From the NCBI RefSeq assembly GCF_040499845.1, contig NZ_CP159342.1:1364001-1428000 (forward strand): 64,000 nt of DNA, written 5' to 3'. This stretch comes from Micromonospora sp. CCTCC AA 2012012. GTDB taxonomy: Bacteria > Actinomycetota > Actinomycetes > Mycobacteriales > Micromonosporaceae. Position numbers and translations under genes: made by a program. The notes beneath the pieces are model-generated. The model had not been told where the DNA came from and ran no database searches. It saw nothing but the letters and a program-made list of their open reading frames with translations. The number at the start of each line of letters is the position of its first letter. Within the stretch, counting starts at the first letter, position 1. Shown in pieces: positions 952 to 5,911 of the stretch.

Positions 952-1257
952 ATGGCACTCAATGACGACGACATGCAGACCACCAGCGGCGGCGGCCTCG
1001 AAGGCCCGGCCGACGGTGGGGCGACCCCGGGCCACCAGGACGGCGGCGCGGACGGTGGCGCCGAGGGCCCGGCCGACGGTGGGGCGACCCCGGGCCACCA
1101 GGACGGCGGCGCGGACGGTGGCGCCGAGGGCCCGGCCGACGGTGGCGCGACGCCCGGTCAGCAGGACGGCGGTGCCGACGGTGGCGCCGAGGGTCCCGCC
1201 GACGGTGGCGCGACCCCGGGCCAGCAGGACGGCGGCGCCGACGGCAGCGCGAGCTGA
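952..1257 (+). CDS. Repeat peptide, 4 x 21-aa Asp/Gly-rich units (possible modified-peptide precursor)
   Basis: This 101-aa, very acidic protein has a short N-terminal part (MALNDDDMQTTSGGGLE) followed by four tandem 21-aa units of the form GPADGGATPG(H/Q)QDGGADGGAE, ending GSAS. Units 1 and 2 have His in the variable position, units 3 and 4 have Gln. It has no signal peptide, membrane segment or Cys. The ATG at 952 has a GAGGGA ribosome-binding site and is the first start in frame after the xylanase terminator. The stop is 1 base before the GTG start of a JmjC-family oxygenase, so the two are almost certainly co-translated. I infer that it may be a substrate of that oxygenase; no family is recognised. 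Confidence 0.75.
   Translation: MALNDDDMQTTSGGGLEGPADGGATPGHQDGGADGGAEGPADGGATPGHQDGGADGGAEGPADGGATPGQQDGGADGGAEGPADGGATPGQQDGGADGSAS
1003..1254 (+). repeat. Four in-frame 63-bp tandem repeats
   Basis: The units are 1003-1065, 1066-1128, 1129-1191 and 1192-1254. Units 1 and 2 are identical at all 63 bases, which suggests recent duplication; units 3 and 4 differ mainly at third positions and by the His-to-Gln codon change. Confidence 0.95.
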
Positions 1258-1258
1258 C

Positions 1259-2530
1259 GTGACGTACCTCGACCCGCCGGACGGCCACGGCCGTCCGGCG
1301 GTTCCGTCTCCGGCCGCCGACGCCCTCGCCCGCTGCATCAGCGTCGAGCCGGCCAAGTTCGCCGCCGCGCACTGGGGACGCGCGCCGCTGCTGTCCCGCG
1401 CCGCCGAACTGCCCAACCCGCGGGGCTTCACCGACCTGCTCAGCCCCGCCGACGCCGACGAACTGCTCAGCCGGCGGGGACTGCGTACCCCGTTCCTGCG
1501 GGTGGCGAAGGACGGCCAGCTCGTGCCGGCGGCCCGGTGGACCGGCGGCGGCGGCGCCGGCGCCGAGATCGGCGACCAGGTCCTCGACGAGCGCATCCTG
1601 GCGCAGTACGCCGGCGGCGCGACCCTGGTGCTGCAGGGCCTGCACCGGATCTGGCCGGCCCTGGTCGACTTCGCCCGCGACCTCGGCACCGCGCTGCGCC
1701 AGCCGTTGCAGGTCAACGCCTACCTGACGCCGGCCGGCAGCCAGGGCTTCGCCACCCACTACGACACCCACGACGTCTTCGTGCTCCAGGTCGACGGCCG
1801 CAAGCACTGGCGGATCCACCCGCCGGTGCTGCCCGACCCGCTGGAGAAGCAGCCCTGGGGCGGCCGGGCCGACGAGGTCTCCGCCACCGCCGACGGGTCC
1901 GCCGCGCTCGACGTGGTGCTGGAGCCGGGCGACGCGCTCTATCTGCCCCGCGGCTGGCTGCACAGCGCGCAGGCGCAGGAGTCCGCCTCGCTGCACCTCA
2001 CCGTCGGCATCCGGGCGCTGACCCGCTACGCCATGGTCGAGGAGCTGCTCGCGCTCGCCGCCGAGGACGCCCGCCTGCGCGCCGGGCTGCCCTTCGGCAC
2101 CGACGTGACCGACCCGGACGCGATCGAGCCGGAGCTGACCGAGACGGTCGAGGCGCTGCGCGACTGGCTGCTGCGGGCCGACCCCGCCGCCGTCGCCGCC
2201 CGGCTGCGCGACCGGGCCTGGCCGGCCGCCCGTCCGGCCCCCATCCGCCCGCTGGCCCAGGCGGCGGCCCTGGCCGCCCTCGACCCGGACAGCCGGGTCG
2301 CCCTCCGGGCCGGCCTGCGCTGGCAGCTCGCCCCCACCGGCGACGGGAAGGTCGCGCTGCGGCTCTTCGACCGCACCATCACCCTGCCCGGCACCTGCGA
2401 GCCGGCGCTGCGCGTCCTGCTCGGTGGCGAGGTGACCCGGGTCGGTGACCTGCCCGGCCTCGACGACGACGCCGACCGCCTCGTGCTGGCCCGCCGGCTG
2501 CTCACCGAAGCCGTCCTGACGCCCGCCTGA
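1259..2530 (+). CDS. JmjC/cupin-type 2-oxoglutarate-Fe(II) oxygenase, ribosomal-oxygenase-like
   Basis: This 423-aa protein resembles the Cupin_4/ROX family (YcfD, NO66, MINA53), which hydroxylates Arg or His residues on proteins. The Fe-binding HxD is visible in ATHYDTHDVF (about residue 166), the distal His in PRGWLHSA (about 238), and the KHWRIHPP strand typical of the family lies just after the HxD. The C-terminal 150 residues would correspond to the dimerisation and winged-helix parts. The GTG at 1259 begins 1 base after the stop of the repeat-peptide gene, so translation is coupled. The family call is strong. The substrate is unknown; the adjacent repeat peptide is the obvious candidate, but a ribosomal protein is the alternative. 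Confidence 0.85.
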   Translation: MTYLDPPDGHGRPAVPSPAADALARCISVEPAKFAAAHWGRAPLLSRAAELPNPRGFTDLLSPADADELLSRRGLRTPFLRVAKDGQLVPAARWTGGGGAGAEIGDQVLDERILAQYAGGATLVLQGLHRIWPALVDFARDLGTALRQPLQVNAYLTPAGSQGFATHYDTHDVFVLQVDGRKHWRIHPPVLPDPLEKQPWGGRADEVSATADGSAALDVVLEPGDALYLPRGWLHSAQAQESASLHLTVGIRALTRYAMVEELLALAAEDARLRAGLPFGTDVTDPDAIEPELTETVEALRDWLLRADPAAVAARLRDRAWPAARPAPIRPLAQAAALAALDPDSRVALRAGLRWQLAPTGDGKVALRLFDRTITLPGTCEPALRVLLGGEVTRVGDLPGLDDDADRLVLARRLLTEAVLTPA

Positions 2531-2576: not shown

Positions 2577-3242
2577 TCAGCGGGTCAGCACGAGCAGGGC
2601 GATGGTGGTCAGCAGGCCCGCGACCAGCACCACGATGATCGGACGCGGGCCCAGCACCGCGTGCCGGCGGTCCGCCAGCAGCCGGGCCGGCGCCAATCCG
2701 AGCAGCGGACCGACCAGCGTCACCACCAGCGCCAGCACCGGCATGCCCACCGCCAGGTCGCCGCCGCTGCCCGCGCCGACCGCCCGGGCCCCCGCCCCGA
2801 GGGCGTACGCGGCCACCGAACCGCCGATGCCGCAGAACGCCAGCAGCGGGTTCACCGAGCCGGGCAGCTCACCCGGCTGACGGGTCCGGTCCAGCAGCTC
2901 CCGCACCCCGCGCAGCAGCGGCACCGGGTCACCCTCGGCGTCCCGCGCCGGCCCCGGCGGGTCACCCAGCCGCCGGCCGCCCCCACCGAGCCGCAGCCGC
3001 AGCTGCTGCCACAGGTGGGTCGCCTCGGCGTCGACCCGCTCGACCAGCTCCCGCGCCTCGACCACCGCCGCCTCCGCGCGGCGTACCTCCTCGGTGGCCT
3101 CGGCGACGGCCCGCTCGGCGGCGGCGCACTGCTGCGCGTACCAGTCGTGCGCCTCGGCGCGCTGGGTGGCCACCCGGGCGGTCAGCTCGGCGAGCCGACG
3201 CAGCTGGGCGGCGTACGTGTCACTGGTGACCGGTTCGTTCAT
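2577..3242 (-). CDS. Membrane protein with N-terminal coiled coil, last gene of FtsK-like operon
   Basis: This 221-aa protein has an Ala/Glu/Arg-rich coiled coil (about residues 10-85) and a hydrophobic C-terminal half with about three membrane segments (from roughly NPLLAFCGIGG to the IIVVLVAGLLTTIALLVL end). It has no recognised domain. The ATG at 3242 overlaps the stop of the FtsK-like gene by four bases (ATGA), so the two are translationally coupled. I infer that it anchors or opens a membrane path for the ATPase complex; this rests only on the linkage and topology. Confidence 0.8.
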   Translation of the reverse strand: MNEPVTSDTYAAQLRRLAELTARVATQRAEAHDWYAQQCAAAERAVAEATEEVRRAEAAVVEARELVERVDAEATHLWQQLRLRLGGGGRRLGDPPGPARDAEGDPVPLLRGVRELLDRTRQPGELPGSVNPLLAFCGIGGSVAAYALGAGARAVGAGSGGDLAVGMPVLALVVTLVGPLLGLAPARLLADRRHAVLGPRPIIVVLVAGLLTTIALLVLTR

Positions 3243-5911
3243 CGGGACGGACCATAAGGGATGATCACCTGTCCGGTGCGGTGCACCGCCCGGTCGAAGT
3301 AGAGACCCCGCCACGGCCGGGGATACCAGTCCGGGCCACCGCTGCCCGGATAGAGCGAGGAGCCCAGCTCGCCGCCCTGCACGTCCAGCGCCACCCACGC
3401 CCCGATCTGGTCGGTACGGGCCGCCGGCCCGCCCAGGTCCACCCGCATCCGGGCCACGCCCCGCCACCACGCCAGCACGTGCGTACGCCGTTCCGGCCCG
3501 TCGTGCAGGATCCGCCGCAGCTGCTCCAGCCCGGTCCGCCGCCCGGCTCGCCCGGCGAGTTGACCAGCCGCCGCGTCGACCGCGTAGAGCAGCAGGTAGT
3601 GCGGCGTGTTCGCGGCACCCGGCGCGCCCAGCGAGTCGCCCACCTCGGCCATCAGCTCCGACACGCTGTCCTCGTCGTACCAGGCGGCGTCGTCGGCGAG
3701 GTCCTCGTACAGCTCGCGGGCGGCCGGGTCGGCGTCCGGGTCGAGGCAGGCGATGGAGAACCGGGCCGTGCCGGGGCGGTGCTGGCGGGCCAGGGAGCGG
3801 GCGGCGGCGTCCAGCACCGCGCAGGCCTCGTCGACCCGGGTGCCCAGCACCGCCAGGTTCCGCCCGGGGGCGCGGGGCAGCCGCAGCGCCGCCGACCGGG
3901 CCTGCACGTCGATGATCTCCCCGAGCAGCGCCACCGGGCTGCGCGGCACCCCCTGCTCCGGCGCGGAGAGGGCCCGGAAGTCCGGGGCGTCGGCCAGCCG
4001 CGGGATCGCGTCGCCGTCGAAGAGCCGGGCCGGGGCGGCGTCGGCGGGGCGCATCCGCCACAGCCGGTGCTGCAACTCGCTCCAACTCTCCCAGTCGCTG
4101 GCGGACGGGATCCGGGCCACCTCGTTCCCCTCGGCCAGCCCGGACTCGGCGTTGACCACCGCGTGGTGCCGGGGGAGCGACTGCGCGGCGTCGTTGCGTT
4201 CGGCCAGGATGCGCAGCGCCTTCGGCAGCGCGATCCGCAGGGTGAACTGGGCGACCAGCGCCGGCCGCCCCCACAGCGCCTCGATGCCGCGTACGTCCTG
4301 CGAGGCCAGCACCAGGTGGATGCCCTGCGACCGGCCCCGCCGGGCCAGGTCCTCCAGCAGGTCGGCGGCCTCCCGGGCGACCACGTCCCGGCCGGCCAGC
4401 AGCGCCTGGAACTCGTCGACCACCGCGACGATCCGGGGCCAGTGCCCGGTCGGGTCGACCGCCCGCAGCTCGGCCAGCTTGGTGACCTCGTGCTTCTTCG
4501 CGGCGTCCGCCCGGCGGCGCAGCTCCTCGGCGAGGAAGCGCAGCAGCGCCAGCCCGAACTCCCGGTCGGTGTTGACGTTGATGCCGACCAGCCGCATGTG
4601 CGGCAGCCAGCTCGGGTCCCGCCGGCCCTTCGCGAACCGGGCGAAGGACACCCCCTCCTTGAAGTCCAGCAGATAGAACTCCAGCTCGGTGGGGGAGTAG
4701 CGGGACGCCAACGCGCCGATCCAGGCGAAGATCAGGTTGGTCTTGCCGGTGCCGGACGGGCCGCCGATCAGCGCGTGCGGCGGATAGTCGCCGAGGGTCA
4801 GCAGCACCGGCCGGCCGTGCGGGCCCTCCCCGATCGGGGCGGTCAGGCCGTGCGCCGAGTCCTCCTGCCAGAACCGGTCCGGTGGCGGCAGCAGGTCGCT
4901 GAACGGGGCCGGTGGGGGACCGGCGTTGACCCGCGACGCGACCTCCCGGCAGGTCTCGGTGACCATGGTGGCCGGGGGCGCGGCGTCCAGGGTGACCGGT
5001 AGCCCGGCGATTCGGGCGCCGTCGGGTTGCACCACCACCCGGGTCACCGTCGGGTGGTCGGGCAGGTCGATGCCGCGCACCACCAGGTGCACCCCGCAGG
5101 CCGCGCCGGTGCGGACCACCCGGTCCAGCTGGCCGCGTTCGTGCCGGTTCAGCTCGTCACCGCCGAGCAGCACCGCCACCCGCCACGGCTCCGGTCGCCG
5201 GCCGGTCGCCGTCGCCAGCTCGCGCAGCGAGCCGTGCTCGCCGGCCAGCACCGTCTCGTTGATCCGGCGGATCTGCTCCACCAGGTCGTCCAGCAGCCGG
5301 CCCAGTCCGCCGGGGCCCACGAAGGTGAGCAGTCCGGCGGTGCCCAGCGGGGCGAACCCGGCCAGGCCGCCGCCGAGGTGCTCGGGGTCGTACCCGAAGA
5401 GCCGGACGGTGCCGGGGTCGGCGCGGCCGACGGAGCGCAGCAGCAGCGCGGGCACCACCGCGGCGATGCCGTCGGTGTCGTCGCCGGCCAGGTGCACGTG
5501 CCCGGCGTCCAGCAGCGGCACCAGCGCCGGCACCGGTTCCGCGCCGGCGATCCGGACCGTGCCCACCCGCACCGCGCCGGGCGGCTCGGCCCGCCCGGCG
5601 GGCGTGGGCCGCCACCGCGACCACGGCGCCGACGCCGCGCCGGGTGCCTCCCGCTCCGCCGCCACCGCCGCCCGCCGGGCCAGCTCCGCGATCCGCGCGG
5701 TGTGCCGGGCGTCGATCTCGGCCAGCCGGCGGTCCCGGGCGGCACCCACCCGCTCGGGTACGGCGGCCGCGGCGCGGCGCACCCGCGCCAGCCGCTCCTC
5801 CCCGGCGGTCAGCTCCGCGCCGGCCGTGGCCAGCCGGTTCCGGGTGGCGCCCAGCGCCTCGGAGAGCATTCCCCGAACCCGGGTCACGAGCTGGGTGCGT
5901 ACGTCAGCCAT
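3239..5911 (-). CDS. FtsK/SpoIIIE-like ATPase with N-terminal coiled coil
   Basis: This 890-aa protein has an N-terminal coiled coil (about residues 15-90), a middle region of about 250 residues without a clear assignment, an FtsK/SpoIIIE P-loop domain with Walker A GGPSGTGKTN (about 383) and Walker B IVAVVDEFQALL (about 494), then a second NTPase-like domain around NLAVLGTRVDEA that lacks a GKT motif. An active plus a degenerate domain recalls EccC-type ATPases, but there are no FtsK membrane helices. ATG at 5911 has a GGGAG site. It overlaps the upstream gene by 8 bases and the downstream gene by 4. It could move DNA or protein; the sequence does not decide which. Confidence 0.85.
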   Translation of the reverse strand: MADVRTQLVTRVRGMLSEALGATRNRLATAGAELTAGEERLARVRRAAAAVPERVGAARDRRLAEIDARHTARIAELARRAAVAAEREAPGAASAPWSRWRPTPAGRAEPPGAVRVGTVRIAGAEPVPALVPLLDAGHVHLAGDDTDGIAAVVPALLLRSVGRADPGTVRLFGYDPEHLGGGLAGFAPLGTAGLLTFVGPGGLGRLLDDLVEQIRRINETVLAGEHGSLRELATATGRRPEPWRVAVLLGGDELNRHERGQLDRVVRTGAACGVHLVVRGIDLPDHPTVTRVVVQPDGARIAGLPVTLDAAPPATMVTETCREVASRVNAGPPPAPFSDLLPPPDRFWQEDSAHGLTAPIGEGPHGRPVLLTLGDYPPHALIGGPSGTGKTNLIFAWIGALASRYSPTELEFYLLDFKEGVSFARFAKGRRDPSWLPHMRLVGINVNTDREFGLALLRFLAEELRRRADAAKKHEVTKLAELRAVDPTGHWPRIVAVVDEFQALLAGRDVVAREAADLLEDLARRGRSQGIHLVLASQDVRGIEALWGRPALVAQFTLRIALPKALRILAERNDAAQSLPRHHAVVNAESGLAEGNEVARIPSASDWESWSELQHRLWRMRPADAAPARLFDGDAIPRLADAPDFRALSAPEQGVPRSPVALLGEIIDVQARSAALRLPRAPGRNLAVLGTRVDEACAVLDAAARSLARQHRPGTARFSIACLDPDADPAARELYEDLADDAAWYDEDSVSELMAEVGDSLGAPGAANTPHYLLLYAVDAAAGQLAGRAGRRTGLEQLRRILHDGPERRTHVLAWWRGVARMRVDLGGPAARTDQIGAWVALDVQGGELGSSLYPGSGGPDWYPRPWRGLYFDRAVHRTGQVIIPYGPSR

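Follow-up and report, generated by a model that had tools for sequence, protein, structure and literature searches.

The JmjC oxygenases of the ROX family (PF08007: NO66/RIOX1, MINA/RIOX2 and YcfD), for which beta-hydroxylation is the usual outcome, are the closest described relatives of the enzyme reported here, which is instead encoded together with a repeat peptide. The substrates of FIH are folded ankyrin repeats of other proteins; FIH is a much more distant enzyme and, unlike the case of the repeat peptide described below, its substrates are not co-encoded. According to the portions of the reports available to us, the biphenomycin enzymes BipG and PbsQ are likewise JmjC-type and hydroxylate a ribosomal precursor peptide (PMC12707348, PMC12257519), with BipG acting on Orn at the gamma carbon (PMC12707348); these enzymes modify one Orn in a small core, whereas the core found here has many repeats and is rich in Asp, and the biphenomycin cluster is larger (MNIO, radical SAM, arginase or TPR protein, protease, MFS) where the present one has one or two enzymes. 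Proteins that combine PF08007 with an RRE-like fold, as here, have also been described, and their bacterial homologues were placed in RiPP-like contexts by the authors (PMC12710340), although the passage on those contexts, in the part available, names neither an Asp-repeat precursor nor a Suc_Fer partner. Beta-hydroxylation of Asp in RiPP precursors is on record, in excerpts of the respective papers, for the MNIOs PflD and PesHI, for an alpha-KG HExxH enzyme (Asp and His) and for SmaO from a graspetide cluster (PMC13060819, PMC12636437, PMC13097080). For PflD and PesHI those excerpts name a single Asp, and the HExxH enzyme has another fold than the JmjC protein considered here. JmjC tailoring of RiPPs is already known, and multi-site Asp hydroxylation in a minimal RiPP-like system is our best reading of the locus. 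A literature search, which saw its sources partly in excerpt, returned nothing recognisable as a peptide-JmjC-Suc_Fer operon, and a prior description is possible.

The locus lies near the beginning of the window, by which we mean the whole stretch of 64,000 nucleotides analysed from Micromonospora sp. CCTCC AA 2012012. Its features are as follows.

855 to 896, + strand: conserved upstream element, promoter or operator candidate (best block in the consensus of 75 aligned Micromonosporaceae upstreams)
938 to 944, + strand: ribosome-binding-site-like GAGGGAG before the peptide start, read from the sequence
952 to 1257, + strand: repeat peptide gene, 101 aa, proposed substrate (ATG at 952, stop at 1255-1257)
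952 to 999, + strand: N-terminal leader-like part, residues 1-16 (MALNDDDMQTTSGGGL), with an acidic LxDDD[IM]-like start that recurs beside differing cores in other classes
1000 to 1251, + strand: proposed core of four 21-aa repeats, EGPADGGATPG(H/Q)QDGGADG(G/S)A, with 12 Asp
1000-1062, 1063-1125, 1126-1188 and 1189-1251, + strand: 21-aa units 1 to 4
1259 to 2530, + strand: JmjC/PF08007 Fe(II)- and 2-oxoglutarate-dependent oxygenase, 423 aa, GTG start
1757 to 1765, + strand: presumed iron-binding H167-x-D169
1802 to 1804, + strand: K182, presumed 2-oxoglutarate ligand
1961 to 1963, + strand: H235, presumed distal iron ligand
2294 to 2524, + strand: C-terminal winged-helix domain, RRE-like, candidate for leader binding (strands then helices, by DSSP of the predicted model)

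The first-pass annotation had described a 101-residue peptide of four 21-residue repeats, in two pairs differing His to Gln at one place, that ends one base before the oxygenase start; the sequence agrees on each point, with PGHQ in units 1 and 2, PGQQ in units 3 and 4, a further Gly to Ser change in unit 4, and a single base between the peptide stop codon and the GTG at 1259. At the DNA level TRF reports a tandem repeat of 63 nt, with a score of 401. Between any two units there are 1-9 nt differences, with 0-2 of them altering an amino acid, and the core has a pN/pS of 0.086 among 29 four-repeat Micromonosporaceae orthologues, indicating that the array is selected as protein. A chance repeat or slippage product was ruled out by this pN/pS together with conservation across genera. 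No Pfam or NCBIfam family matched the peptide at E up to 1, and the only database names seen for it were 'hypothetical protein' and 'BatC protein'; the latter, carried by some homologues, was taken as a mislabel, and the phrase was not found in the literature search. The window's genome has one match to the peptide profile described below. One homologue of the repeat peptide (P0134, 248 aa) has a PF08818 domain in the same protein.

The ROX-like identity proposed earlier for the JmjC protein was borne out by both the family profile and the fold, since the protein matched JmjC_2 (PF08007, E 4.1e-30) and Cupin_8 (PF13621, E 5.4e-11) and its nearest solved structures were NO66, MINA and YcfD. Compared with NO66, an HMMER alignment showed a conserved RxxPFxR segment and an LHR motif that NO66 does not have. 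The database names seen for the enzyme were 'cupin', 'JmjC', NO66/MINA-like and L16 Arg81 hydroxylase. In the enzyme alignment, H167-x-D169 and K182 are invariant in the 136 rows of the DGG group, the 27 other-core rows and the 2 rows of genus g106, and H235 is present in 135/136 (one row gapped), 27/27 and 2/2 of these rows, respectively. From what is known of the ROX/JmjC family we take H167, D169 and H235 to be the iron ligands, and K182 presumably serves as the 2-oxoglutarate ligand, as in ROX enzymes. R76 and R130 are both found in 136/136 DGG rows and 26/27 other-core rows, while among the JmjC rows without an Asp-rich repeat peptide R76 occurs in 2/9 and R130 in 4/9; plain descent may account for this sharing. 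The genome of the window contains two PF08007 matches, of which the window JmjC is the sole full-length one. The second gene, which is PF08007/cupin-like (L082, G000:C1:2262902-2263234), covers part of the family only (32% identity, residues 165-251), has aminotransferase-like and aldolase-like neighbours as read by eye, and does not look like a peptide-JmjC system.

The species-genome scan used the window JmjC and kept the best 80 of 339 relatives, all of which are Micromonosporaceae (Micromonospora, Verrucosispora, Salinispora, Plantactinospora, Phytohabitans, Actinoplanes, Paractinoplanes, Jidongwangia and Asanoa). Among these best 80 of 339, an acidic repeat peptide precedes the JmjC gene at every locus, 74 times complete and 6 times in part, the partial cases being those where a contig end or an N run intervenes and the repeat is visible in the same place. 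The complete peptides end 3-156 nt upstream of the matched JmjC start and contain four units in 36 cases, three in 35, two in 2 and six in 1 (L062, counted with three, contains an N run). A JmjC match at E up to 1e-3 was obtained in 228/300 Micromonosporaceae genomes from 25/44 genera, a figure that refers to JmjC alone and includes some weak matches.

Across the class, a profile built from 16 peptides and searched blind in 394 genomes had matches in 59, and 57 of these adjoin this JmjC (3 within Micromonosporaceae and 54 of the 56 outside). The JmjC proteins beside the 54 outside peptides share 43-60% identity with that of the window over the best segment, and the two matches with no JmjC nearby (L143 and L146) look like chance profile matches. 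The reverse search of the same 394 genomes with a JmjC profile gave 128 matches at E up to 1e-20; no score falls between 475 and 397 bits. The high-scoring group above this gap comprises 60 genomes, that is, 59 at 475 bits or more and the frame-broken G571; 57 of them are the peptide-profile matches, G326 has a DGG peptide unseen by the profile, and G570 and G380, from one genus, have an acidic peptide of a different kind with no DGG. An acidic peptide is thus adjacent in 60/60 high-scoring class genomes, and the co-occurrence of peptide and JmjC by genome (57, 3, 2, 332) gave a Fisher p of 2e-62, which is a guide only because the genomes are related. The peptide-JmjC feature is real, selected and tightly linked, and the earlier proposal of a conserved peptide-oxygenase pair with RiPP-like anatomy stands on 80/80 Micromonosporaceae loci (6 of them cut) and on all 60 class genomes. 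In the JmjC frame of L095 the assembly shows an interruption, by decay or sequencing error, while its peptide and Suc_Fer-like gene look intact. L148 and L149 (genus code g106) combine a high-scoring JmjC with an acidic peptide that has no DGG repeats and have no Suc_Fer-like gene; their enzymes are nested among DGG-linked ones, so the precursor seems to have been swapped.

The first-pass annotation had held that oxygenase homologues occurring widely without a repeat peptide would make the pairing incidental. In the close clade an acidic peptide was adjacent every time; more distantly related PF08007 proteins sometimes lack one, as seen when 20 class loci at or below the edge of the high-scoring group were examined. 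In 5/20 no peptide was found upstream (L154, L160, L163, L165 and L166), and one more (L157) is cut. Asp-rich repeats of other kinds, such as GDADTTD, SDGTDSDGTD and DADSTDAD, were found in 7/20 (L150-L153, L155, L161 and L162). In another 4/20 (L156, L158, L159 and L164) a different small acidic peptide lies upstream of a more distant JmjC; these peptides, with endings such as GDSDGTDSSSDFI and DPDPSDDCWIVCNPNYCY and with no Suc_Fer-like gene, are possibly further RiPP types. The remaining 3/20 are the loci of G326, G570 and G380 described above. Of 246 genomes searched across the phylum, 36 contain a JmjC match at E up to 1e-40. Of 20 loci taken from other classes, the upstream region was readable in 18, and 18/18 have an Asp-rich repeat peptide, whose common LTDEDIETV(W)-like start resembles the LNDDDMQTT of the window. 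One genome (G716) has a second JmjC gene (L180, 323 bits) with no Suc_Fer-like gene in its stretch and with its upstream region cut.

A third gene accompanies the pair at most loci outside Micromonosporaceae. The three representatives tested all match PF06999 (E 2e-17, 3e-19 and 8e-14), and the third gene lies directly downstream, on the same strand and within 400 nt, at 47/57 high-scoring loci outside Micromonosporaceae, these being the 55 with a DGG peptide together with L148 and L149. In L095 it lies at 441 nt because the JmjC gene is broken, and it is missing from L091, L108, L121, L126, L128, L132, L138, L148 and L149. It is also present in all 7 other-core class loci and in L157, and in 17/20 phylum loci, with one more weak match at 18 bits; among the phylum loci, L177 and L186 have an uncertain start and the L182 sequence stops at the JmjC gene. 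None of the 81 Micromonosporaceae stretches contains the gene (at least 1 kb of downstream sequence is present in 72 of the 80 fetched), and PF06999 found nothing in the genome of the window, so the gene cannot be essential to the system in this family. A PDB sequence search with one third-gene protein gave nothing significant. We take PF06999 proteins to be thioredoxin-like ferredoxins. The available part of one report describes SCO5830 of Streptomyces coelicolor as a putative thioredoxin-like ferredoxin of a predicted iron regulon with high expression under copper overload (PMC12161575). The third gene, the acidic start of the peptides and the spread through the phylum had all been missed by the first-pass annotation.

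The acidic start is found by pattern in 74/74 Micromonosporaceae peptides, in 33/55 other DGG peptides (7.2 expected after shuffling) and in 25/25 other-core peptides, where the starts were chosen with a similar pattern; across classes it recurs while the core changes. Within Micromonosporaceae the leader has a pN/pS of 0.46 compared with 0.086 for the core and is less constrained, the reverse of the usual RiPP pattern. The order of elements in the C-terminal domain of the predicted enzyme structure is that of an RRE, three strands before three helices, with four strands over 346-377 (DSSP of the model: E346-349, E356-359, E364-368, E373-377, H378-388, a short helix 395-397 and H404-416). By a looser pattern, set after the data had been seen, the acidic start occurs in 36/39 DGG peptides beside full-length JmjC C-termini and in 4/16 beside shortened ones; two of the three misses on the full-length side (L099 and L126) come from wrongly trimmed rows in which the start is present. 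Most peptides of one enzyme clade lack the acidic start. A quick enzyme tree of 85 rows, with weak support for 26/82 inner branches, groups the DGG-linked enzymes and nests the g106 pair among them; other-core enzymes branch outside this group, and enzymes whose C-terminus is shortened make up a single group. The covariation of leader and C-terminus therefore maps to one clade and counts as one event, which is weak evidence.

Upstream of the peptide gene, the element at 855-896 reads GTCTAC..GGTTAG..GATCG..GGGGTACCACCC in Micromonosporaceae, and a GAGG(G)AG-like element precedes the start in most of the Micromonosporaceae orthologues listed. IdeR/DmdR1-like iron-box patterns were found in 0/130 rows over 400 nt upstream, so iron control is not supported by a simple pattern scan. 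GTGN6CAC was rejected as a general element, as it occurs in 41/75 Micromonosporaceae upstreams against 2/55 others, with some starts set too far upstream. Clustering of neighbours (65 loci, about 4 kb each side, top 25 clusters listed) showed that those common to more than three families are JmjC, the third gene, the peptide and their other-frame shadows, the shadows being judged by eye. No protease or exporter is among the 25 clusters listed, leaving leader removal and export unsupported; the genes for them are possibly elsewhere. Read by eye, the neighbouring genes in the window look like the last part of a secreted xylanase-like enzyme that carries a carbohydrate-binding tail (1-811, + strand) and an FtsK/SpoIIIE-type ATPase (3239-5911, - strand), and neither belongs to the peptide-JmjC system.

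On balance we favour, at somewhat better than even confidence, the view that the two genes form a RiPP-like system in which the JmjC enzyme hydroxylates many of the Asp residues of the repeat peptide. The oxygenase would hold the acidic N-terminal start of the peptide, probably via its RRE-like C-terminal domain, and the JmjC centre, with Fe(II), 2-oxoglutarate and O2, would hydroxylate many Asp in the DGG(A) repeats, with C-beta the most likely position; the product would contain up to about 12 beta-hydroxyaspartates. Outside Micromonosporaceae, the Suc_Fer-like ferredoxin-type protein of the same operon may act as a redox partner, for example by keeping the iron reduced or by acting on the metal-loaded product. 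Such a dense (hydroxy)Asp array suggests a metal-binding peptide.

The choice of residue can be read from the cores. In the 29 four-repeat orthologues, drawn from the 74 complete peptides, the 12 core Asp codons have a pN of 0.000 at a pS of 0.637, that is, the residue never changed. The peptide had been called Asp/His-rich and His or Arg proposed as the modified residue; the Asp part of that description holds, and the His part fails, as His is variable and often absent from orthologues. Hydroxylation of His (or Arg), as in NO66, MINA and YcfD, does draw on the closest solved relatives, NO66 and MINA, being His hydroxylases, and on His often standing just before DGG (QH in 105/259 units of the 74 Micromonosporaceae peptides; GHDGG usual in L091-L102). 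However, the His/Gln positions, meaning the residue pair that precedes the first DGG(A) in each DGGADG, evolve almost freely (pN/pS 0.74; variants QH, QQ, HQ, QR, KQ and RQ in Micromonosporaceae peptides). A census of 154 cores (74 Micromonosporaceae, 55 DGG elsewhere and 25 other-core, leaving out L062, the six cut Micromonosporaceae loci, L148, L149 and the small peptides of L156, L158, L159 and L164) found no His in 53, 19 of them among the 74 from Micromonosporaceae, no Arg in 71 and neither in 21, with the same kind of enzyme adjacent, so that His or Arg cannot be the common target; we regard this alternative as the least probable of those weighed here. Modification of another core residue (Gly, Ala or Pro), or another oxidation such as desaturation, crosslinking or backbone cleavage, is unlikely to a lesser degree. 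Ala is present in 154/154 cores and Gly in all DGG cores, which it dominates, and a macrocyclising iron oxygenase, which reportedly appeared in Xia et al. 2025, counts on the same side. Iron oxygenases that cleave RiPP backbones have been published, as far as the available excerpt goes (PMC12636437). Yet some other-core peptides contain little Gly and one contains none, and Ala falls to a minimum of 3.4%, whereas Asp is in 154/154 cores at a minimum of 13.6% (the composition of the L099 and L126 rows is diluted because they include in-frame residues from upstream of the peptide) and would be the sole reactive residue abundant throughout. As judged from these sequences, Asp is the residue that fits.

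Two further explanations would detach the enzyme from the peptide. The JmjC protein might be a ribosomal oxygenase, acting for instance on uL16, with the peptide as a partner, regulator or metal-handling protein; its ROX fold and family, the several database names of ribosomal type (L16 Arg81 hydroxylase, NO66, MINA) and its standing as the sole full-length match in the genome speak for this. A universal ribosomal target is nevertheless hard to match with a spread as patchy as 60/394 class genomes in the high-scoring group, or with the strict link to a repeat peptide that is of different types in different enzyme clades, and we consider this explanation improbable. Slightly more improbable still is that the peptide is an unmodified low-complexity acidic protein, buffering calcium or iron for example, whose only tie to the redox genes is a common operon. 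Its composition alone could bind metals, and export or processing genes are absent from the 25 neighbour clusters listed; against this, the peptide has a leader-like start, and the oxygenase is adjacent at every locus of the clade that has upstream sequence.

Multi-site Asp hydroxylation by a co-encoded JmjC enzyme thus remains the reading we prefer. A wider proposal, which we offer tentatively and think rather doubtful as a whole, is a phylum-wide actinobacterial family of ribosomal poly(beta-hydroxyaspartate) peptides, in which the peptide-JmjC-ferredoxin operon would, through Asp hydroxylation at multiple sites, make multidentate iron- or calcium-binding polymers and the Suc_Fer-like partner would drive reductive metal loading or release. 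The operon, of two or three genes, occurs in 60/394 sampled class genomes, with other cores in further classes. The natural His-free, (ADGG)n and DGTD cores are ready-made specificity tests. If a dozen or more Asp are indeed hydroxylated per peptide, the locus would amount to a minimal RiPP system acting at multiple sites, would parallel in bacteria the hydroxylation of repeat proteins and would give tractable access to hydroxyaspartate-rich metal ligands.
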